A DNA stretch of 36,556 bases from Nitrospirota bacterium. Its GTDB lineage: Bacteria > Nitrospirota > Thermodesulfovibrionia > UBA6902. The stretch spans positions 1-36,556 of the forward strand of contig JACRPZ010000078.1 of the NCBI GenBank assembly GCA_016222905.1, read 5' to 3'. Under the pieces are notes generated by a model. That model worked only from the letters and a program-made list of their open reading frames with translations. It did no database searches and was not told the origin of the DNA. Position numbers and translations under genes: made by a program. This document shows, piece by piece, positions 4,654 to 14,286 of this stretch. Numbering within the stretch: the stretch's first letter is position 1; each line of letters opens with the position of its first letter.

Positions 4654-6444
4654 CTATTTTACCTTAAGAACAGCAAGAAAAGCTTCCTGCGGGATCTCGA
4701 CCCTCCCGAACTGCTTCATTCTTCGCTTGCCTTCCTTCTGTTTCTCAAGGAGTTTCCTTTTTCTGGTAATATCGCCGCCATAGCATTTTGCAAGCACATT
4801 CTTCTTCATCGCCTTTATGCTTTCTCTTGCTATTATTTTGCTCCCTATGGCCGCCTGGATAATGACCTCAAACATCTGTCTGGGGATAACCTCCTTAAGC
4901 TTTTCAGTAATCTGCCTTCCCTTAAGGTAAGCGCTGTCAGCATGGACTATCATCGAAAGAGCATCAACAGGTTCGCCGTTTAGAAGCACATCAAGCTTTG
5001 TCAGCTTTGATACCCTGTGTCCGATAAACTCATAATCCATCGAGGCATAACCGCTGGACGAAGATTTCAACTTATCATAAAAATCCCATAAGATCTCGCT
5101 TAAGGGAAGCTCATACGTCACCCTTATCCTCTCTTTTCCGATATAATCAAACTCTTTCTGCACGCCGTGTTTTTCCTCACAGAGCGCAAGGATAGGGCCG
5201 ATATATTTTGACGGGACAAAGATCAGGGTCTTAACAAAAGGCTCTTCAATCTTTTCATAGTTCTGCGGCAATTTCGCCGGGCTGTCAATATAAATAATAC
5301 TTTTGTCTGTTTGCGTAACTCTGTAAACGACTGTAGGAGCAGTGTTCAGAAGGGAGAGATTAAACTCTCTTTCAAGCCTCTCTTTCACTATCTCCATATG
5401 GAGAAGTCCCAGAAAACCGCACCTGTAACCAAAGCCGAGCGCGGTTGAACTCTCAGGCTCGTAACTAAAGGAAGAGTCATTAAGCTTAAGTTTTTCGAGG
5501 GCATCTTTCAATTCAGCATACTGGTTAGGCTCTGTTGGATAAAGACCGGAAAATACCATGGGCTTGACATCCTTGTAACCGGGGCACGGCTCCTGCGTCG
5601 GGTTTTCCGCATCTGTTATAGTGTCGCCGACCTTTGTATCCGCAACATTCCTTATGCCCGCAATTATATAACCCACCTCGCCTGATTTTAGTTCTTCAAC
5701 AGCCTTTTTATGCGGCGTCAGCACGCCTATCTCAAGAACCTCATATGATTTTTGAACAGCCATGAGAAGGATCTTGTCGCCCTTTTTTATTGTGCCGTCA
5801 AAGAGTCTCACAAGCACAATAACCCCCTGATAATTATCAAACCATAGATCAAATATCAATGCCTTTAAGGGAAGGCTGCTGCTTCCTTTCGGCGGCGGCA
5901 GCCTTTTTACCACCGCCTCCAGGGCATCCCTGATGCCGATGCCCTCTTTTGCGGAAGTGATAATAACGTCACTGCAGTCTATGCCTATTGATTCTTCGAT
6001 CTGTTCTTTTACCCTTTCAGGTTCCGCGCCAGGGAGGTCTATCTTGTTTATCACGGGTATTATTTCGAGATGATTCTCGGAAGCTAAATAGGCGTTGGCA
6101 AGGGTTTGGGCCTCAACACCCTGAGTGGCGTCAACTACAAGCAGGGCGCCCTCGCATGAGGCAAGACTGCGCGAGACTTCATAGGAAAAATCTACATGAC
6201 CCGGCGTGTCTATGAGGTTGAGTATATAATCTTTCCCGTCCAAGGCCTTATAATTAAGCCTGACGGCATGGGCTTTTATGGTTATCCCGCGCTCTTTTTC
6301 AAGGTCCATGGAGTCCAGAACCTGCTTTGACATCTCCCTCAGCGACAGCGCTCCGGTAAGTTCGAGTATACGGTCGGCTATGGTAGATTTACCGTGGTCT
6401 ATATGAGCGATAATGGAGAAATTTCTTATATTATTGCTGGACAT
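4654..6444 (-). CDS. lepA: Elongation factor 4 (LepA), ribosome-associated GTPase
   Basis: A translational GTPase with the EF-G-like core and the LepA-specific C-terminal domain. The G1 motif AHIDHGKST is at residues 13-21. [17 protein letters not shown] (G3) and NKIDLPGA (G4) follow. [19 protein letters not shown] belongs to the domain III/V region, and the Lys/Arg-rich tail ([20 protein letters not shown]) is the CTD signature. ATG 6444 gives 596 residues, close to the family's roughly 600. An in-frame TTG at 6489 would overlap the ROK gene and add a non-family leader. lepA-lepB adjacency is widespread. Confidence 0.96.
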
Positions 6445-6460
6445 CTCTTTATACAGCGGA

Positions 6461-7441
6461 TTATTTTGCAGCTTCGGAATGAAGCGCAAGGCCTGCAGCG
6501 CCTAACGAACCGCAATCTGTGCTTAATATGGTTTTCAGTATCTTTACATTTGTAGCAAGGGGTTTCAGCGCTCTTCTCGAAACCTCTTTTTTCACTTCAT
6601 CAATAAAAAGGTCCCATGCGCCCACAAGTCCTCCCCCAATAATTACAGCTTCCGGGCTTAAGATATTTATAAGGTTTGCAATGCCTATGCCCAGATAGTG
6701 TCCAAACGGCCTGAAGAGTTCTCTGCTGAAGCTGTCGCCTTCCAGCGCGGCCTTAAATATATCTTCAGGTGTTATCTTGTAATAATTGCCGTCGCAGAAT
6801 TGCGTTAATATGCTCTCCGTTCCCTTCTCCAATGATGACGTTGCAATATCAACAATGGCCCTGCCTGAAGCGTATGATTCAAGACATCCGGAACTGCCGC
6901 AGGTGCAGGGGCGTCCGTTCGGTTCAATGACCATATGTCCGGCCTCTATAGCGCCCTCATAAGGTTTGCCCTTATAGATCAGCCCGCTGCCCAAACCTGT
7001 TCCGAGCGTAAGCACGATAAAATTATCAAAATCTTTCCCGGTTCCGACCCATTTTTCTCCATAGGCGCAGGCATTCGCGTCATTCTCCACTACAACATGG
7101 AGGGAGAACTCCTTCTCAAAGATATCTTTTATCTGGAGTTTATTTATAGCCGGAATATTAGGCGAATAAATAACAGTTCCGCCTTTTCTGTCTATGATGC
7201 CTGCAATGCCAAACCCGATGCCTGCAATACCATTCACTCCTGCACGGCCCGACGAAAAAGTCCTGAGAGCATCTTCATTAATAATACCTTTTAAGACCCT
7301 GAATAGCAGGTCTTTTATATTAACGTTATGTCCTTCAGAAGGCGTTGGATATGACTGGCTTGTCAGCACTTTGCCGTCTTCTGAGACAAGAACAACCTTT
7401 ATATTTGTCCCGCCAATATCAATGCCGATCGCCATTTTCAT
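6461..7441 (-). CDS. ROK-family sugar kinase, probable glucokinase
   Basis: 326 residues with the ROK layout. The N-terminal phosphate-binding loop is [12 protein letters not shown] (5-16). [16 protein letters not shown] holds the catalytic Asp region. The zinc-binding motif is [15 protein letters not shown] (three spaced Cys with a preceding His in GHMVIEP). The C-terminal GGGLVG motif follows. Such ROK kinases usually phosphorylate glucose or another hexose with ATP; the substrate cannot be told from sequence alone. AGGAG lies 11 bases before the ATG. It is the first gene of the minus-strand run, and its stop is 16 bases before the lepA ATG. Confidence 0.9.
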
Positions 7442-7685
7442 AGAGGTTCTTCTCCTGTTGGAAAAAATGCAGTAATTACTTGGAATGATTATAATATCAC
7501 AACCAAAAAAAATATGCGTAAGTCATGTAAAGACAAGACTTATAGAGAACAATCCGTGTGAGACAAACGGATGGTGGCCTCAGTGGGCATAGCCCATTTC
7601 GTCGATCTGCTTTTCGAGAGCGGAGATAACACCGTGCTGCTTGAAAAAATTAATTATAATAAGGATAATATTGAAGGGTTTGATT

Positions 7686-8018
7686 ATGAAATTACAAAGT
7701 ATCGCAACAATAGTCGTCCTTTTGCTCTTCCCGCTTTTCACGCAGGCCGAGGACCCCATGAATGCAGTTCAGGTGCATGTCAATAAAGTACTTGACGTCC
7801 TTCGTGACAAGAGTCTAAAAGAAGAGGCAGCTACATCAAGTAAGAAAAGAAATAGATTACAAAGTCGTTCTGAAAGACAATGGATGGAAAGTTTATGACA
7901 TCAGCATTGAGGGGTCAGCCTGGTAAGCAACTATCGGACCCGGTTCAAAGAAATCCTTATGAATAAATCTTCCGCAGAATTTCTTGAAATTCTGCGGAAA
8001 AAAGTAAGCACTATATAA
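7686..8018 (+). pseudogene. mlaC: mlaC remnant: internal deletion plus frameshift
   Basis: The ATG at 7686, preceded by AAGGG, opens with a signal peptide (MKLQSIATIVVLLLFPLFTQ, cut after AEA-like residues) and about 30 residues resembling the mature start of MlaC (VNKVLDVLRDKSLKEEA). From about 7849 a different frame encodes an MlaC C-terminus: IDYKVVLKDNGWKVYDISIE. At 7911-7914 a run of four G, where five are expected, shifts the frame again. The next frame reads SLVSNYRTRFKEILMNKSSA and EFLEILRKK, ending at TAA 8016. Roughly 90-100 central residues of a normal ~200-residue MlaC (periplasmic phospholipid shuttle) are missing. Read as it stands, the first frame stops at 7898. It lies just upstream of mlaA. 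Confidence 0.82.
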
Positions 8019-8044
8019 TAGATGTGCCTGATGGTGTTAAAAAA

Positions 8045-8890
8045 ATGAAACCTGTCACAAACACGATCTTTTCTGCTTTTTTCATTGCTCTTTTTTTTGC
8101 GTGCTTGTTTGCGGGCTGTGCGCATCAAAAACATGCCAATATCGCTTCTGCTGAAACAGTCTCATCATCCACCCAGAAGCAAGACTTGCAATCTACCTCA
8201 ACCGAGCACGCCGCAGATGGTGGAGAGGGTGTGAATCAGGAGACCTATGATACAGATAATGAGGCTGCTGACGAAACAGAGGATGTTCAGATTGCAGACC
8301 CTTTGTCTTTCTTTAATAGAGGCATGTATAACTTTAATGATAAGCTGTATTTCTGGATACTGAAGCCTGTGGCAAAAGGCTATGCATCTATCGTTCCGGA
8401 AAAAGGAAGGATTTCAGTAAGGAATTTTTTTAATAATCTTGCGTTCCCGGTACGGTTTGTCAGCAATGTCATGCAGGCGAAGGGGAAATCCGCAGTAATT
8501 GAATTTGCACGCTTTGGCGTAAATTCAACAATTGGAATTGTCGGGCTCAATGACATTGCAAAAAAAGGGCTGAATCTTGAAGTCCCGGATGAAGACATTG
8601 GACAAGCCCTTGGTTACTATAAGATCGGGCACGGCTTTTATATCGTATGGCCTCTGTTAGGCCCCTCTTCTTTGCGCGACACGATTGGATTTATTGGCGA
8701 CATATTCTTATATCCGGTGAGTTATATTAATCCGGCAGAAACCTCCGCAGGCATATCCGCGTACGAAAATGTTAACAACGTCTCATTGCACATCGGAGAT
8801 TATGAGTCTCTTAAGGAAGCGGCTATAGACCCTTATACTTCAATCCGAAATGCTTACATACAGAATAGAAAAAAGAAGGTCGAAGAATAA
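8045..8890 (+). CDS. mlaA: MlaA (VacJ) outer-membrane lipoprotein
   Basis: Outer-membrane component of the Mla phospholipid transport system. A lipoprotein signal peptide ends in LFAGC (Cys about residue 23). An acidic, Ser/Thr/Glu-rich linker of about 60 residues follows. The MlaA domain starts at DPLSFFNRGMYNFNDKLYFW, with VRNFFNNLAFPVRFVSN, RFGVNSTIGIVGL, DIGQALGYY and YIVWPLLGPSSLRDTIG. The linker is longer than in the Escherichia coli protein. I use ATG 8045 because it gives a normal lipoprotein leader; GTG 8024 is an alternative. It begins 26 bases after the mlaC remnant ends and converges on the cNMP-domain gene, 4 bases away. Confidence 0.92.
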   Translation: MKPVTNTIFSAFFIALFFACLFAGCAHQKHANIASAETVSSSTQKQDLQSTSTEHAADGGEGVNQETYDTDNEAADETEDVQIADPLSFFNRGMYNFNDKLYFWILKPVAKGYASIVPEKGRISVRNFFNNLAFPVRFVSNVMQAKGKSAVIEFARFGVNSTIGIVGLNDIAKKGLNLEVPDEDIGQALGYYKIGHGFYIVWPLLGPSSLRDTIGFIGDIFLYPVSYINPAETSAGISAYENVNNVSLHIGDYESLKEAAIDPYTSIRNAYIQNRKKKVEE

Positions 8891-8894
8891 AAAA

Positions 8895-9362
8895 TCAGAA
8901 TATCTCAGCGAACCTCTCCACAGCCTTTCGAAGCCGTATAGATAAAACCCTGTTCAAACCCTGTAACACTTTTATTCCTACATAAGGATATTTCTGAACA
9001 AAATCATCAAATGCGCCTCTCCTCAGGATAAGCAGGTCAGAATCTTCCGTTACAAAGACAGTTGCCGACCTGGGCCGTTCATCAAAAAAATTGAGTTCTC
9101 CTACGAAAGAACCCTTTGTCAGCAGGGCAAGCACTACTTGCCGTCCTTTAAACTCGGTTTGTTTTCTTACCTCCAGCTTGCCACAGACAATAAAACCCAA
9201 AAAGTTTCCGGAGTCACCTTCTTTAAATACTATTGAGCCGGCAGGAAAGTGAAGCAATTCAAAGGAAGGGGCTAACTGATTCAGTTCCTCATCAGAAAGT
9301 GAATAAAGTATATTTAAGGCTTCCCTTTGTTCGTAAATTATTTTTTTTATGTCATTTTCCAT
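8895..9362 (-). CDS. Cyclic-nucleotide-binding-domain protein without DNA-binding domain
   Basis: A 155-residue protein consisting essentially of one cNMP-binding beta-barrel domain (about residues 15-135). It has FPAGSIVFKEGDSGNFLGFI and the phosphate-binding-cassette region GSFVGELNFFDERPRSATVF, where the Glu-Leu and Arg-Ser-Ala pattern is typical. There is no C-terminal helix-turn-helix, so it is not a Crp/Fnr transcription factor. It follows mlaD by about 56 bases on the same strand, so it may modulate the MlaEFD transporter in response to a nucleotide; that role is inference from position. Confidence 0.85.
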   Translation of the reverse strand: MENDIKKIIYEQREALNILYSLSDEELNQLAPSFELLHFPAGSIVFKEGDSGNFLGFIVCGKLEVRKQTEFKGRQVVLALLTKGSFVGELNFFDERPRSATVFVTEDSDLLILRRGAFDDFVQKYPYVGIKVLQGLNRVLSIRLRKAVERFAEIF

Positions 9363-9418
9363 AAAAAGCTCCTGATAGCAGCGATTATCAGGCTATATTT
9401 CAGGTAATAACTCTTCTT

Positions 9419-9859
9419 TTATTCTTTATTGAAAATGTACTTGCTTACTAACTCTTCCAGTTCCACTGATGATTCTGTTTCAGATATTTCACCGCCGGAT
9501 ACGATATATTGTTCGGAGCCGCCCGGCTGAATCTTAACATATTTGTCACCGACTATCCCCTTTGTCCTGATAGAAGCCATCGCATCATCCTGGAGTTTTA
9601 CGTCAGGGTTGATCATCATTTCCACAAATGCCTCATAATTATTCAAATGAATTCTGCTTACCTCGCCCACTTCCACCCCCGCTATTTCTACGAGTGCCCC
9701 TTCCTTGAGTCCTGAGATGTTTGCAAAGCGCGCCGTTACCGGATACTGTTTTGAGCTGAAAAGTTTTACATCACCTAATTTAACAGAGAGATAGGCTAAA
9801 CAGAGAAGACCGAAAATGAGCAATATCCCCACACCCGTTTCAATATTAATTTTTTTCAT
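9419..9859 (-). CDS. mlaD: MlaD-type MCE-domain substrate-binding protein
   Basis: Periplasmic, inner-membrane-anchored component of an MCE lipid transporter. An N-terminal membrane helix lies at about residues 8-27, followed by one MCE domain (about 38-118). ARFANISGLKEGALVEIAGV and EVGEV form the conserved MCE core. DDAMASIRTKGIVGDKYVKI holds the conserved GIxGxKY-like strand. The length of 146 matches single-MCE MlaD proteins. It starts 2 bases after the mlaF stop, so it is co-transcribed and probably translationally coupled. Partner MlaE and MlaF are encoded immediately upstream. Confidence 0.94.
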   Translation of the reverse strand: MKKINIETGVGILLIFGLLCLAYLSVKLGDVKLFSSKQYPVTARFANISGLKEGALVEIAGVEVGEVSRIHLNNYEAFVEMMINPDVKLQDDAMASIRTKGIVGDKYVKIQPGGSEQYIVSGGEISETESSVELEELVSKYIFNKE

Positions 9860-9861
9860 AG

Positions 9862-10638
9862 CTATTCACCCTCCATTTTTTCACTGATAAATAATGATCC
9901 CATAGTTGTTTTCACATAATCTTTGATTACCGGATTTTCCGACATCTGGAATTCTTCCGGGGTCACACAATCCTGAATAGTTCCTTTATGAAGGAGCGCA
10001 ACATAATCAGCCAACTTGAATATCTTAGGAGCATCATGGCTTACAATAACGGATGTGTAACCTATTTGTGATTGACTCCTGAAAAACACACGGTATATTT
10101 CATTGCTCTTGGCCGGATCAAGTCCGGTTGTCGGCTCGTCAAAAAAAACTATTTTAGGATCTAACACGAGTGCGCGCGCAAGGCCAACCCTTTTCTTCAT
10201 TCCGCCGCTTAACTGAGCCGGGTACTTATCGTCACTGCCCTCAACATCCATCATGGCAAGTTTCTCATTCACTATCTCCCGGATCTTCTTTTCAGGAAGG
10301 CCTGTCCGCTCTCTAAGCGGAAAGGCAACATTATCGAATACCGTCATTGAATCAAAAAGCGCCACATTCTGAAATAGTACGCCAAAACTTGTCCTTACGT
10401 TTCTCAACTCTTTCCTGCTGATTTTGTTAATATCCGCCCCGTCTACTATAATTTCTCCGCTGTCGGGCTTTGCAAGCCCCAAAATAAGTTTGATGATCAC
10501 GCTCTTCCCCTGCCCGCTCTCTCCGACAATGACTGTTGTCTTGCCCGTTTCTATGGAGAGATTGACCCCATTGAGAACCTGCTGTGGACCAAATGATTTT
10601 TTTACATCAATGAGCCGTATAGCGTATTCTTTGTTCAT
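9862..10638 (-). CDS. mlaF: MlaF-type ABC transporter ATPase
   Basis: Cytoplasmic ATPase of the MCE-type lipid transporter. Walker A GESGQGKS at residues 39-46, signature LSGGMKKRVGLARAL, Walker B KIVFFDEPTTGLDP, and the switch His in VIVSHD are all intact. The Gln in Walker A (SGQGKS) is typical of the MlaF/Ttg2A subfamily. Length 258 is normal. Its ATG overlaps the mlaE stop as ATGA, and the stop is 2 bases before mlaD. Confidence 0.95.
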   Translation of the reverse strand: MNKEYAIRLIDVKKSFGPQQVLNGVNLSIETGKTTVIVGESGQGKSVIIKLILGLAKPDSGEIIVDGADINKISRKELRNVRTSFGVLFQNVALFDSMTVFDNVAFPLRERTGLPEKKIREIVNEKLAMMDVEGSDDKYPAQLSGGMKKRVGLARALVLDPKIVFFDEPTTGLDPAKSNEIYRVFFRSQSQIGYTSVIVSHDAPKIFKLADYVALLHKGTIQDCVTPEEFQMSENPVIKDYVKTTMGSLFISEKMEGE

Positions 10639-11423
10639 AAAAGTACCGATGTTAAAAAATAATCAAAAAGCAATATTGCTATTGAAGACATAACTACCGC
10701 ATTCGTTGTTACCCTGCTGACTCCCTCGGCGCCAAATCCTCCGTTTCGTTCCAGGTGCATAAAATAACCTTTTGCTGCGCAAATCCATATAATAAGCACG
10801 CCAAAACATAAGGACTTTACAATCCCCATATAAATATCATCAAAAGCAACATCCTTGTACATGCTCGTAAAATATGCGCCCTTGTTTGCTCCCAGCAAAC
10901 CCACACCTATGATGTAACCGCCGCCTATCCCGACAACATCAAAAATTGCGGTCAGCAGCGGAAGGGAAATTATTCCGGCAATGAATTTTGGAGAGACGAT
11001 ATATTTGATTGGGTCAATGGCCATACAGTCAAGGGCATCAATCTGTTCTGAATTGCGCATAATGCCTATTTCCGCGCAAACCGCAGAGCCTGCGCGCCCT
11101 GTTACCATAAGCGCCGTTAAAACAGGGCCTAATTCTCTGATGAGACCGAGGGCAACAGCAGACCCGAGAAGTCCCACAGCGCCAAATTTCCGCAGTGTAT
11201 TGTAACCCTGAAGTCCAAGCACCATACCTGTAAAAGTGCCAGTGAAAATAATAACGAAGATTGAGAGCGTCCCGATTACATATATCTGCTTAATAATCTG
11301 TGAAATTTTGTGGGGAGGTTTGAATATAGCGATAAGAGAGGAGAAAAGAAATATTCCCATTCTTCCGGCCTGATTCAAATAATATAAAAAATCTTCTCCG
11401 ATTTTTTCGAAAAACCTGAGCAT
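10635..11423 (-). CDS. mlaE: MlaE-type ABC transporter permease
   Basis: Inner-membrane permease of the Mla/MCE system. 262 residues with about five to six hydrophobic segments. It carries the family core GLIRELGPVLTALMVTGRAG, SAVCAEIGIMRNSEQIDALD and LERNGGFGAEGVSRVTTNAV. It is the first gene of mlaE-mlaF-mlaD-cNMP on the minus strand. A small STAS protein (MlaB) is not found next to it. An imperfect palindrome at 11452-11471 lies in its upstream region; a TATAAT on the minus strand at 11491-11496 might be its -10 box. Confidence 0.95.
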   Translation of the reverse strand: MLRFFEKIGEDFLYYLNQAGRMGIFLFSSLIAIFKPPHKISQIIKQIYVIGTLSIFVIIFTGTFTGMVLGLQGYNTLRKFGAVGLLGSAVALGLIRELGPVLTALMVTGRAGSAVCAEIGIMRNSEQIDALDCMAIDPIKYIVSPKFIAGIISLPLLTAIFDVVGIGGGYIIGVGLLGANKGAYFTSMYKDVAFDDIYMGIVKSLCFGVLIIWICAAKGYFMHLERNGGFGAEGVSRVTTNAVVMSSIAILLFDYFLTSVLL

Positions 11424-11625: not shown

Positions 11626-14286
11626 TTACTGCAATACAAAATCACTGATCGTTACAGTGCCGCTGATAATGTTAAGATTCCCGTTCAGTATTGTCTTTCC
11701 GGTAACCGCCGTGTAAGCATTGTTATAACCACCCTGAAGAGTAACAGACTTGTCTAAATTAATAATTAAATTTTCAGTAAAGTTCGTCGTCTGGCTCTCG
11801 ATAGTGTCGCCATTATCTGAAGCAATGTAAGCAGACTGTAGGGTAGAATAATATGTCGTACCTGTTCCTGTAGCTCTTATTTTAGGGTAAATATTCGGGT
11901 CATCGTCGTTTATATCGCCTGATGTGGCTGTCAGCTCTGATGATACTTTGTATCCCGCAGGTCTTGTGCATGAGATTGCGATGGTTATGCCGTCTGAGAA
12001 GCCGTCTCCATCTGCATCTTTATACCATGTCTGGCCAGGATGCTCATTTATATCATTGTCATTGCAGTCGCCTGATGTGGCTATTAATTCTGATGCAACT
12101 TTATCACCGGTAGGTCTTAAGCATTGCACAATAAAATCGCCGCTTGAATACAGATCATTGTCTGTGTCTTTATACCAAGTCTGATTTGGATGTTCTAAAG
12201 GATCATTGTCATCACAATCGCCCTGTTGTATTGAATAGCCATCACCGTCAGCGTCATCGTCAAGAGACGCGTTTGTTGCATATTTAAGGTCTTTTTTTGA
12301 AGAATCGTAATAACTGATATGGACGTTGTTGTTTAGATCTACGGCTAAGGACATTGAACCAGCATAACCAGCGTATCCAGTCGAATCAATTATAGACGTA
12401 GCCCATAATCCTGAAACATTAGTGGCATATTTAATGTCGTTATTCGTAAAGTCATAATAATTGATATGAACCTTGTTGTTTGAATCGATGGCTATATAGG
12501 GATATCGTCCGACTGACCCTGCAGAATCAATCGTAGACGACACCCATGAGCCAGATGTGTTGGTAGCATATTTGAGATCGGCTGTACTGTTATTATAGTA
12601 ACTGATATGCGCCTTGTTGTTTGAATCAATTGCTATGGAATCATACATTTCTCCCAACGAATCTATAGAGGTAGCGACCCATAAGCCTGAAACATTCGTT
12701 GCATATTTTATGATGCTGCTATAATCATAACTAATATATATCTTGTCATTTGAGTCAACTGCTATAGATGTATAACCGGAATTTTGATCCGCATATATTG
12801 AATAATCTATTAAAGAAGCAACCCATGAGCTTGAGGCGTTTGTTGCATATTTAAGGCCATACTCATTATAGCCAATGTAACTAATATGAACCTTGTTATT
12901 TGAATCTACTGCTATAGCAGGATATGACCCTGTATCTATTGATGTTATCACCCATGTACCTGAGGCATTAGTGGCGTATTTTATGTAATATGGAAAGATA
13001 TAATAAGCAATATGTATCTTATTATTTGAATCTATAGCAATAGATGGATTTCGTACAGTTCCTGTTGAATCTATTGAGCTTGTTACCCATGAACCTGAGG
13101 CATTATTGATATATTTCAGGCCGTTCCCGACATAACCAATGTGCACTTTATTATTTGAATCGATGCCTACAGATGAGTAGGTTCCCGCATTTTCTGATGA
13201 ATCAACAGTTGATTTAATCCATGAGCCAGATGTGTTGGTAGCATATTTGAGATCGGCTGTACTGTAGTAACTTATATGTACTTTGTCGTTTGAGTCAAGG
13301 GCTATTGAGGTATAATATCCCGAATCAATTACAGAAGTAACCCATGAGCCTGAGGCATTTGTGGCGTATCTAAGATGAAATATGGGCTTGCCACCGGAGG
13401 TGGCATAAGATGAATAACTAACATGCACCTTATTGTTTGAATCTATGGCGATAGAAGTATATTCCCCTGTAGTTCCTGATGAATCCACTGTACAAACGTC
13501 CCAAGAGCCTGAGACATTTGTAGCATATGTCAAATAAGCGCTTGTGCCATAATAACTGATATGGGCTTTGTTGCTGGAGTCTATTGCTATGGAAGTGTAT
13601 TTCCCAAAAGCACTCCCCCTTGGATCCACTGCGGATATAACCCATGAACCTGAAGTATTAGTTGCATAGTAAAGACCGCTACCAGTATGATAGCTGATAT
13701 GCACCTTATCGTTTGAATCGAGGGCTATTGACGTATAATCTCCTGCTGAATCTACTGTGGACGTCATCCAAGAGCCCGAAGCATTAGTTGCATACTTAAG
13801 ACCGATGCCGCTGTAACTAATATGTATTTTATTGTTTGAATCTATTGCAATAGAAGTAAAAGTCCCTACATCCCCTGCTGAATCAATTGTAGAAGTAACC
13901 CAGGAACCTGAGGCATTGGTTGCATATTTCAAGTCAGCATTGTTGTTATCACGATAACTTATGTGCACCTTGCTGTTTGAGTCTATGGCAATAGAAGGAA
14001 AATAACCTACATCTGCGGAATCATCTACTGTTTCATACTGCCACTGTACTCCGTCAAAATATGTGTGATATAAATTATCGCCGCCGTATGCAATATGGGG
14101 CTGGTTTGTGACCTTTTCAATAGCTATAGACCTCTGGTAGAAGTTGATAAAATATACGGGTGCGTCAATGTCTTCTATAATCCAATCGGCAGAAGCAGTT
14201 TCGGGCATGCATATTAGTAAAAACAGTGGTAATAAAAGCAGGTAAAATCTTTTGGATCCGGTCTTCCTAAAGATTCCCTCTTTCAT
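11626..14286 (-). CDS. Large secreted repeat protein: 14 propeller-like repeats plus MopE-type metal-binding motifs
   Basis: 886 residues. It has an N-terminal signal peptide (hydrophobic YLLLLPLFLLICM, cleavage near ASA-DW at about residue 33). About 14 tandem repeats of 40-48 residues follow, with the pattern SIAIDSNNKVHISYY, then LKYATNASGSW, then a TS-IDS tail (about residues 50-680). The spacing and Trp/Tyr positions suggest beta-propeller-like blades; that is inference. The C-terminal part has three Asp-rich motifs: GDCDDNDPLEHP, GDCNDNDINEHP and GDINDDDPNIYP. They are spaced by QTWYKD-D-D segments and resemble MopE/thrombospondin-3-like calcium or metal-binding modules. About 75 beta-strand-rich residues follow. 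AAGGGGGC precedes the ATG. A cell-surface or secreted role is likely; the ligand is unknown. Confidence 0.85.
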   Translation of the reverse strand: MKEGIFRKTGSKRFYLLLLPLFLLICMPETASADWIIEDIDAPVYFINFYQRSIAIEKVTNQPHIAYGGDNLYHTYFDGVQWQYETVDDSADVGYFPSIAIDSNSKVHISYRDNNNADLKYATNASGSWVTSTIDSAGDVGTFTSIAIDSNNKIHISYSGIGLKYATNASGSWMTSTVDSAGDYTSIALDSNDKVHISYHTGSGLYYATNTSGSWVISAVDPRGSAFGKYTSIAIDSSNKAHISYYGTSAYLTYATNVSGSWDVCTVDSSGTTGEYTSIAIDSNNKVHVSYSSYATSGGKPIFHLRYATNASGSWVTSVIDSGYYTSIALDSNDKVHISYYSTADLKYATNTSGSWIKSTVDSSENAGTYSSVGIDSNNKVHIGYVGNGLKYINNASGSWVTSSIDSTGTVRNPSIAIDSNNKIHIAYYIFPYYIKYATNASGTWVITSIDTGSYPAIAVDSNNKVHISYIGYNEYGLKYATNASSSWVASLIDYSIYADQNSGYTSIAVDSNDKIYISYDYSSIIKYATNVSGLWVATSIDSLGEMYDSIAIDSNNKAHISYYNNSTADLKYATNTSGSWVSSTIDSAGSVGRYPYIAIDSNNKVHINYYDFTNNDIKYATNVSGLWATSIIDSTGYAGYAGSMSLAVDLNNNVHISYYDSSKKDLKYATNASLDDDADGDGYSIQQGDCDDNDPLEHPNQTWYKDTDNDLYSSGDFIVQCLRPTGDKVASELIATSGDCNDNDINEHPGQTWYKDADGDGFSDGITIAISCTRPAGYKVSSELTATSGDINDDDPNIYPKIRATGTGTTYYSTLQSAYIASDNGDTIESQTTNFTENLIINLDKSVTLQGGYNNAYTAVTGKTILNGNLNIISGTVTISDFVLQ
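12280..14020 (-). repeat. Coding tandem repeats of about 120-145 bp inside the 886-residue protein
   Basis: The DNA repeats the same two blocks through this region. One reads (plus strand) as variants of CTTGTTGTTTGAATC...GC(T/A)AT, encoding the DSNNK core. The other is variants of CATGAGCC(T/A)GA, encoding the SGSW core. Copies have diverged by many synonymous and some non-synonymous changes, so the array is old rather than freshly amplified. Two adjacent stretches near 12554-12590 and 13225-13262 are almost identical, which points to a more recent internal duplication or conversion. Such DNA is prone to assembly collapse. Confidence 0.8.

Follow-up and report, generated by a model that had tools for sequence, protein, structure and literature searches.

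A relic of mlaC in front of mlaA in a Nitrospirota draft genome: probable decay of a redundant copy

The mlaC sequence at positions 7686–8018 of the DNA analysed here is most probably a recently broken, redundant type-2 mlaC that lies before its old operon partner mlaA, while the pathway would be served by an MlaC encoded on a different contig, C6. The stretch analysed, hereafter the window, comprises 36,556 nucleotides (bases 1–36556 of contig C59) of a Nitrospirota draft genome of 2.84 Mb in 90 contigs, estimated to be 100% complete with 1.5% contamination. Plain decay of a spare mlaC is the most likely account of this locus, and a missing middle step in the lipid pathway the less likely one, because the same genome has an intact mlaC, its only one, within a further operon for lipid transport.

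We read the relic by three-frame translation of 7641–8100. The initial annotation had described an MlaC signal peptide and N-terminus joined out of frame to an MlaC C-terminus, with about 90–100 central residues missing and a second frameshift in a G run at 7911–7914, and each of these points was recovered in the following parts of the relic.

7686..7832, + strand: 5' piece in frame 1, encoding the signal peptide and the N-terminus (translation; tblastn against C6 MlaC E = 7e-12, 51% identity)
7833..7851, + strand: approximate junction of the central deletion, with a frame change (ends placed to within a few codons)
7852..7910, + strand: middle piece, frame 2, IDYKVVLKDNGWKVYDISIEG (PF05494 positions 114–137, E = 0.001)
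7911..7914, + strand: GGGG at the second frame change, which is on a one-base scale
7911..8018, + strand: 3' piece, frame 1, to the stop (64% identity to C6 MlaC, E = 1e-9)
7970..7999, + strand: perfect inverted repeat of 13 bp (loop CTTG) within the 3' piece (sequence; single copy in the genome)

From the ATG at 7686, frame 1 reads MKLQSIATIVVLLLFPLFTQAEDPMNAVQVHVNKVLDVLRDKSLKEEAA, a signal peptide and MlaC N-terminus, and continues until a stop closes an ORF of 70 aa. From about 7840, VRKEIDYKVVLKDNGWKVYDISIEG is read in frame 2, and frame 1 after the GGGG gives GVSLVSNYRTRFKEILMNKSSAEFLEILRKKVSTI, a good MlaC C-terminus ending at the stop 8016–8018. Measured against C6 MlaC, about 92 residues of the core (about 58–149) are absent. 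No full-length PF05494 frame is present: the domain matches only at positions 114–137 and 136–165, in two frames and with the core missing, and a PF05494 search of the organism's own genome recovered these two C-terminal pieces with E = 0.001 and 0.012. With the intact C6 MlaC as query, the N-terminal piece matched with E = 1e-10 and the C-terminal piece with E = 8e-6. Judged by sequence comparison, the match to MlaC is far above chance, and the central deletion and frame changes, absent from homologues, are those expected of a pseudogene; relatives' mlaC frames are open and encode about 190–240 aa. We also considered the inverted repeat as a dispersed element and rejected this, as it occurs once in the genome.

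The other Mla genes of the window, reported as intact in the initial annotation, are full length by Pfam, as are the neighbouring genes for a cNMP-binding protein and a ROK-family kinase.

6461..7441, − strand: ROK-family kinase, upstream neighbour, outside the Mla system (PF00480)
8024..8890, + strand: mlaA, intact (PF04333, E = 3e-67)
8895..9362, − strand: cNMP-binding domain protein (PF00027; directly downstream of mlaC in relatives, by synteny)
9363..9418, − strand: gap of 56 bp that separates mlaD from the cNMP gene, the slot of mlaC in relatives
9419..9859, − strand: mlaD, short form, 146 aa (PF02470)
9862..10638, − strand: mlaF (PF00005)
10635..11423, − strand: mlaE (PF02405, E = 2e-74)

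The lipoprotein start of MlaA is probably the ATG at 8045, and a search of the genome with MlaA matched the window copy only. Immediately before mlaE, and in the same orientation, lies an 886-aa ORF (window 11626–14286) with a weak match to RCC1 repeats, and contig C87 carries a further MCE system, distinct from these, in which one frame is 483 aa long.

The suggestion in the initial annotation that another MlaC might exist elsewhere proved correct. A PF05494 search of the genome returned a single gene over the cut-off (C6:8427–9041, 204 aa, E = 1e-46), whose product is related by sequence to solved MlaC/Ttg2D structures and which is the last gene of a separate operon, mlaE'F'D'C'. This operon is intact and without mlaA; its MlaD is 166 aa long, and its MlaE' shares 53% identity with the MlaE of the window. 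Contig C6 was placed in the genome by binning, which may be in error, and the support available here is compositional: its tetranucleotide profile correlates with that of the window at r = 0.944, compared with r = 0.913 between the window's own halves. The Mla parts list is thus complete in this genome, though split across two contigs, with intact MlaA, MlaD, MlaE and MlaF on C59 and MlaC, MlaD', MlaE' and MlaF' on C6.

Several features of C6 are worth recording. In the type-2 MlaF', an ABC ATPase is fused at its C-terminus to a GGDEF-like domain whose signature motif looks degenerate (L092:9511-10761 on C6, by Pfam; L118-L120, L149 and L150, by similarity), and this architecture is also present in Desulfobacteraceae loci. 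An AsmA/YhdP-family gene (L092:11840-13522) adjoins mlaE'F'D'C' divergently, so that candidate genes for lipid export and lipid retrieval are adjacent. The contig also bears restriction and mobile-type genes, a point against the redundancy account, and the setting of the mla operon looks island-like, with genes for BRO-N, DUF4411, an HTH-M78 peptidase and type I restriction specificity beside it (L092:13747-17624).

Sequence and position both assign the relic to a second, type-2 Mla lineage. Over shared columns it is 55% identical to C6 MlaC, 43–44% identical to the type-2 MlaCs of genome G020 and less than 40% identical to all type-1 MlaCs; to any full-length MlaC other than that of C6 its identity is at most 44%. 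In the tree, the relic, C6 MlaC and the G020 type-2 MlaCs form one clade (support 98/96), within which the relic pairs with C6 MlaC (94/57, the SH-aLRT value of 57 being weak). The 55% identity and the type-2 clade identify the relic, at the sequence level, as a descendant of MlaC; its grouping with type 2 led us to reject the idea of a displaced type-1 mlaC. The relic lies on the opposite strand to mlaEFD and directly before mlaA, and a matching C-A order is seen in G012 and G020, whose type-2 operons have the order E'F'D'C'-mlaA. On these grounds we regard relic and mlaA together as the putative end of a second, type-2 operon. This operon end was perhaps acquired, and may have come by duplication or by transfer. 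The clade of stand-alone MlaAs that is usual in the family does not include the window MlaA, which lies nearest to Desulfobacteria (moderate support, 88/89), and a database contig scan with the window MlaA matched only Desulfobacteria, Planctomycetota and one gammaproteobacterium, in a search from which records of the organism's own species were possibly excluded.

The codons of the relic also speak to the timing of its breakage. Across 82 codons alignable with C6 mlaC, identity is 59/82 (72%) at first, 66/82 (80%) at second and 24/82 (29%) at third positions, so that third positions approach saturation in a protein that has stayed conserved. This pattern indicates that the relic was long constrained as a protein and broke late, so both mlaC copies would have been under constraint for a long time and the breakage would be recent.

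A further mlaC is missing from the locus. In relatives with a window-type mlaE (64–80% identity), mlaC lies downstream of mlaEFD at 22 loci, 12 of which have an orthologue of the window cNMP gene after mlaC. In the window, the cNMP gene follows mlaD after 56 bp, giving the relatives' mlaEFD-C-cNMP arrangement minus mlaC, and the type-1 mlaC is accordingly absent; inspection of the gap by eye revealed no remnant of it. Separation of mlaEFD from mlaC is, from these gene orders, not unique to the window: genome G016 (78% complete) keeps mlaEFD with no MlaC detected, its MlaE being 95% identical to that of G004 and its sequence departing from G004's just after mlaD, and in G008 mlaC sits on a separate contig from mlaEFD. 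Contig G036:C177 encodes an MlaE' and MlaF' 89% and 87% identical to their C6 counterparts and ends inside mlaF'; no MlaC was found in genome G036. The order ROK-mlaC-mlaA was not found among the 37 family genomes, none of which is of the same genus. The ROK gene itself occurs in 35 of the 37, adjoining lepA where inspected, with no mla genes nearby within the stretches taken at those loci.

In 11 relatives the slot between mlaD and mlaC holds a TolC-family gene (L096, L101 at 6257–7642, L106, L107, L109, L144, L145 and L214-L217; PF02321 for L101, tblastn for the rest), and none of these 11 genomes has an MlaA at least 43% identical to the window's, G034 having a distant one at 36%. Genomes with mlaEFDC minus the TolC-family gene have MlaA (in G011 a contig-end piece only), and in G054 (L113) mlaA itself occupies the slot. 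From this distribution, it looks as though either the TolC-like protein or MlaA acts as the partner in the outer membrane. We found no literature directly on point for mlaC pseudogenes or for MlaC with TolC-like proteins beyond a study of Veillonella (PMC10665443).

Set against known systems, the genome encodes the same parts as the Mla systems of E. coli and Pseudomonas (Ttg2), namely MlaA, MlaC (one, on C6), MlaE, MlaF and MlaD. As in E. coli, whose mlaA is not part of the mlaFEDCB operon (PMC10665443), mlaA is apart from the intact mlaC operon. Unlike the E. coli/Ttg2 type, there are two dissimilar mlaEFD sets alongside a single MlaC and a single MlaA, a GGDEF-like domain at the C-terminus of the C6 MlaF', and a broken second mlaC before mlaA. 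The type-2 mlaE'F'D'C'A operons of G012 and G020 are closer in having mlaC directly before mlaA, in the MlaC clade and in the ABC-GGDEF-like MlaF found on C6, but the window has only the C-A end, with C broken, and E'F'D'C' lies intact on C6, where no mlaA accompanies it.

Among other explanations, it is unlikely that the Mla genes of the window are remnants in decay, mlaA and mlaEFD going the way of mlaC while the genome relies on the C6 system. Two mlaC losses bearing on one locus (that of the type-1 gene and that seen in the relic) would fit such a course, but none of mlaA, mlaE, mlaF, mlaD and the cNMP gene is interrupted or shortened, the window MlaE is 75–80% identical to that of many relatives, and the genome has no mlaA but this one. 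Decay of the locus, as raised in the initial annotation, holds for mlaC alone, the frames of mlaA and mlaEFD being open. It is distinctly unlikely that the window mlaEFD functions without any MlaC, even though MlaEFD of Veillonella parvula works without MlaA and MlaC (PMC10665443) and G016, at 78% completeness, has mlaEFD and no detectable mlaC. The window set resembles that of Veillonella in having no intact mlaC beside it; there, however, MlaD is elongated, with a beta-barrel end, and spans the periplasm (PMC10665443), whereas neither MlaD of this genome is of that bridging form, the longer MCE protein on C87 belongs to another system, and the genome has both MlaC and MlaA. Two MlaC-independent halves, a further proposal of the initial annotation, are conceivable but not needed as an explanation.

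We consider it very improbable that the species really has a full-length mlaC here and that the relic is an artefact of assembly or sequencing. Errors of one base are frequent in G runs, but about 92 codons are gone in mid-contig between intact neighbours, and a chimera with the C6 copy is unlikely since the two sequences differ at most third codon positions. Least plausible of all is a function of the relic's own, as a 70-aa secreted product or as an RNA with the inverted repeat (e.g. a leader of mlaA): the 5' piece does have an open frame that starts with a signal peptide, and the repeat is perfect, but the repeat lies, in single copy, within normal MlaC coding sequence, and the short form was shown by no relative among the genomes searched.

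Under decay of a redundant copy, C6 MlaC would carry phospholipid between the window MlaA and MlaE'F'D', and would perhaps also serve the window MlaEFD. With the pathway so served, loss of the copy at 7686–8018 would have cost little and the gene could decay, while the adjoining mlaA would have stayed under selection. Counting the missing type-1 mlaC of relatives, the lineage appears to have gone from up to three mlaC genes to one. We put forward only tentatively that this one MlaC may serve two unlike MlaEFD complexes in trans, via a single MlaA of the other lineage; these complexes would be its own, with the GGDEF-like domain on MlaF', and an older, family-typical one whose mlaC has been lost.

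Overall, the locus most likely shows nothing out of the ordinary, a spare mlaC in decay where two Mla lineages form a mosaic, and it cautions that a single window of a draft genome can mislead on a missing pathway step. If MlaC is indeed shared, the arrangement would be a natural swap of MlaC partners, and two Mla lineages with one MlaC and one MlaA offer a natural experiment on the specificity of MlaC for its MlaD and MlaA partners.
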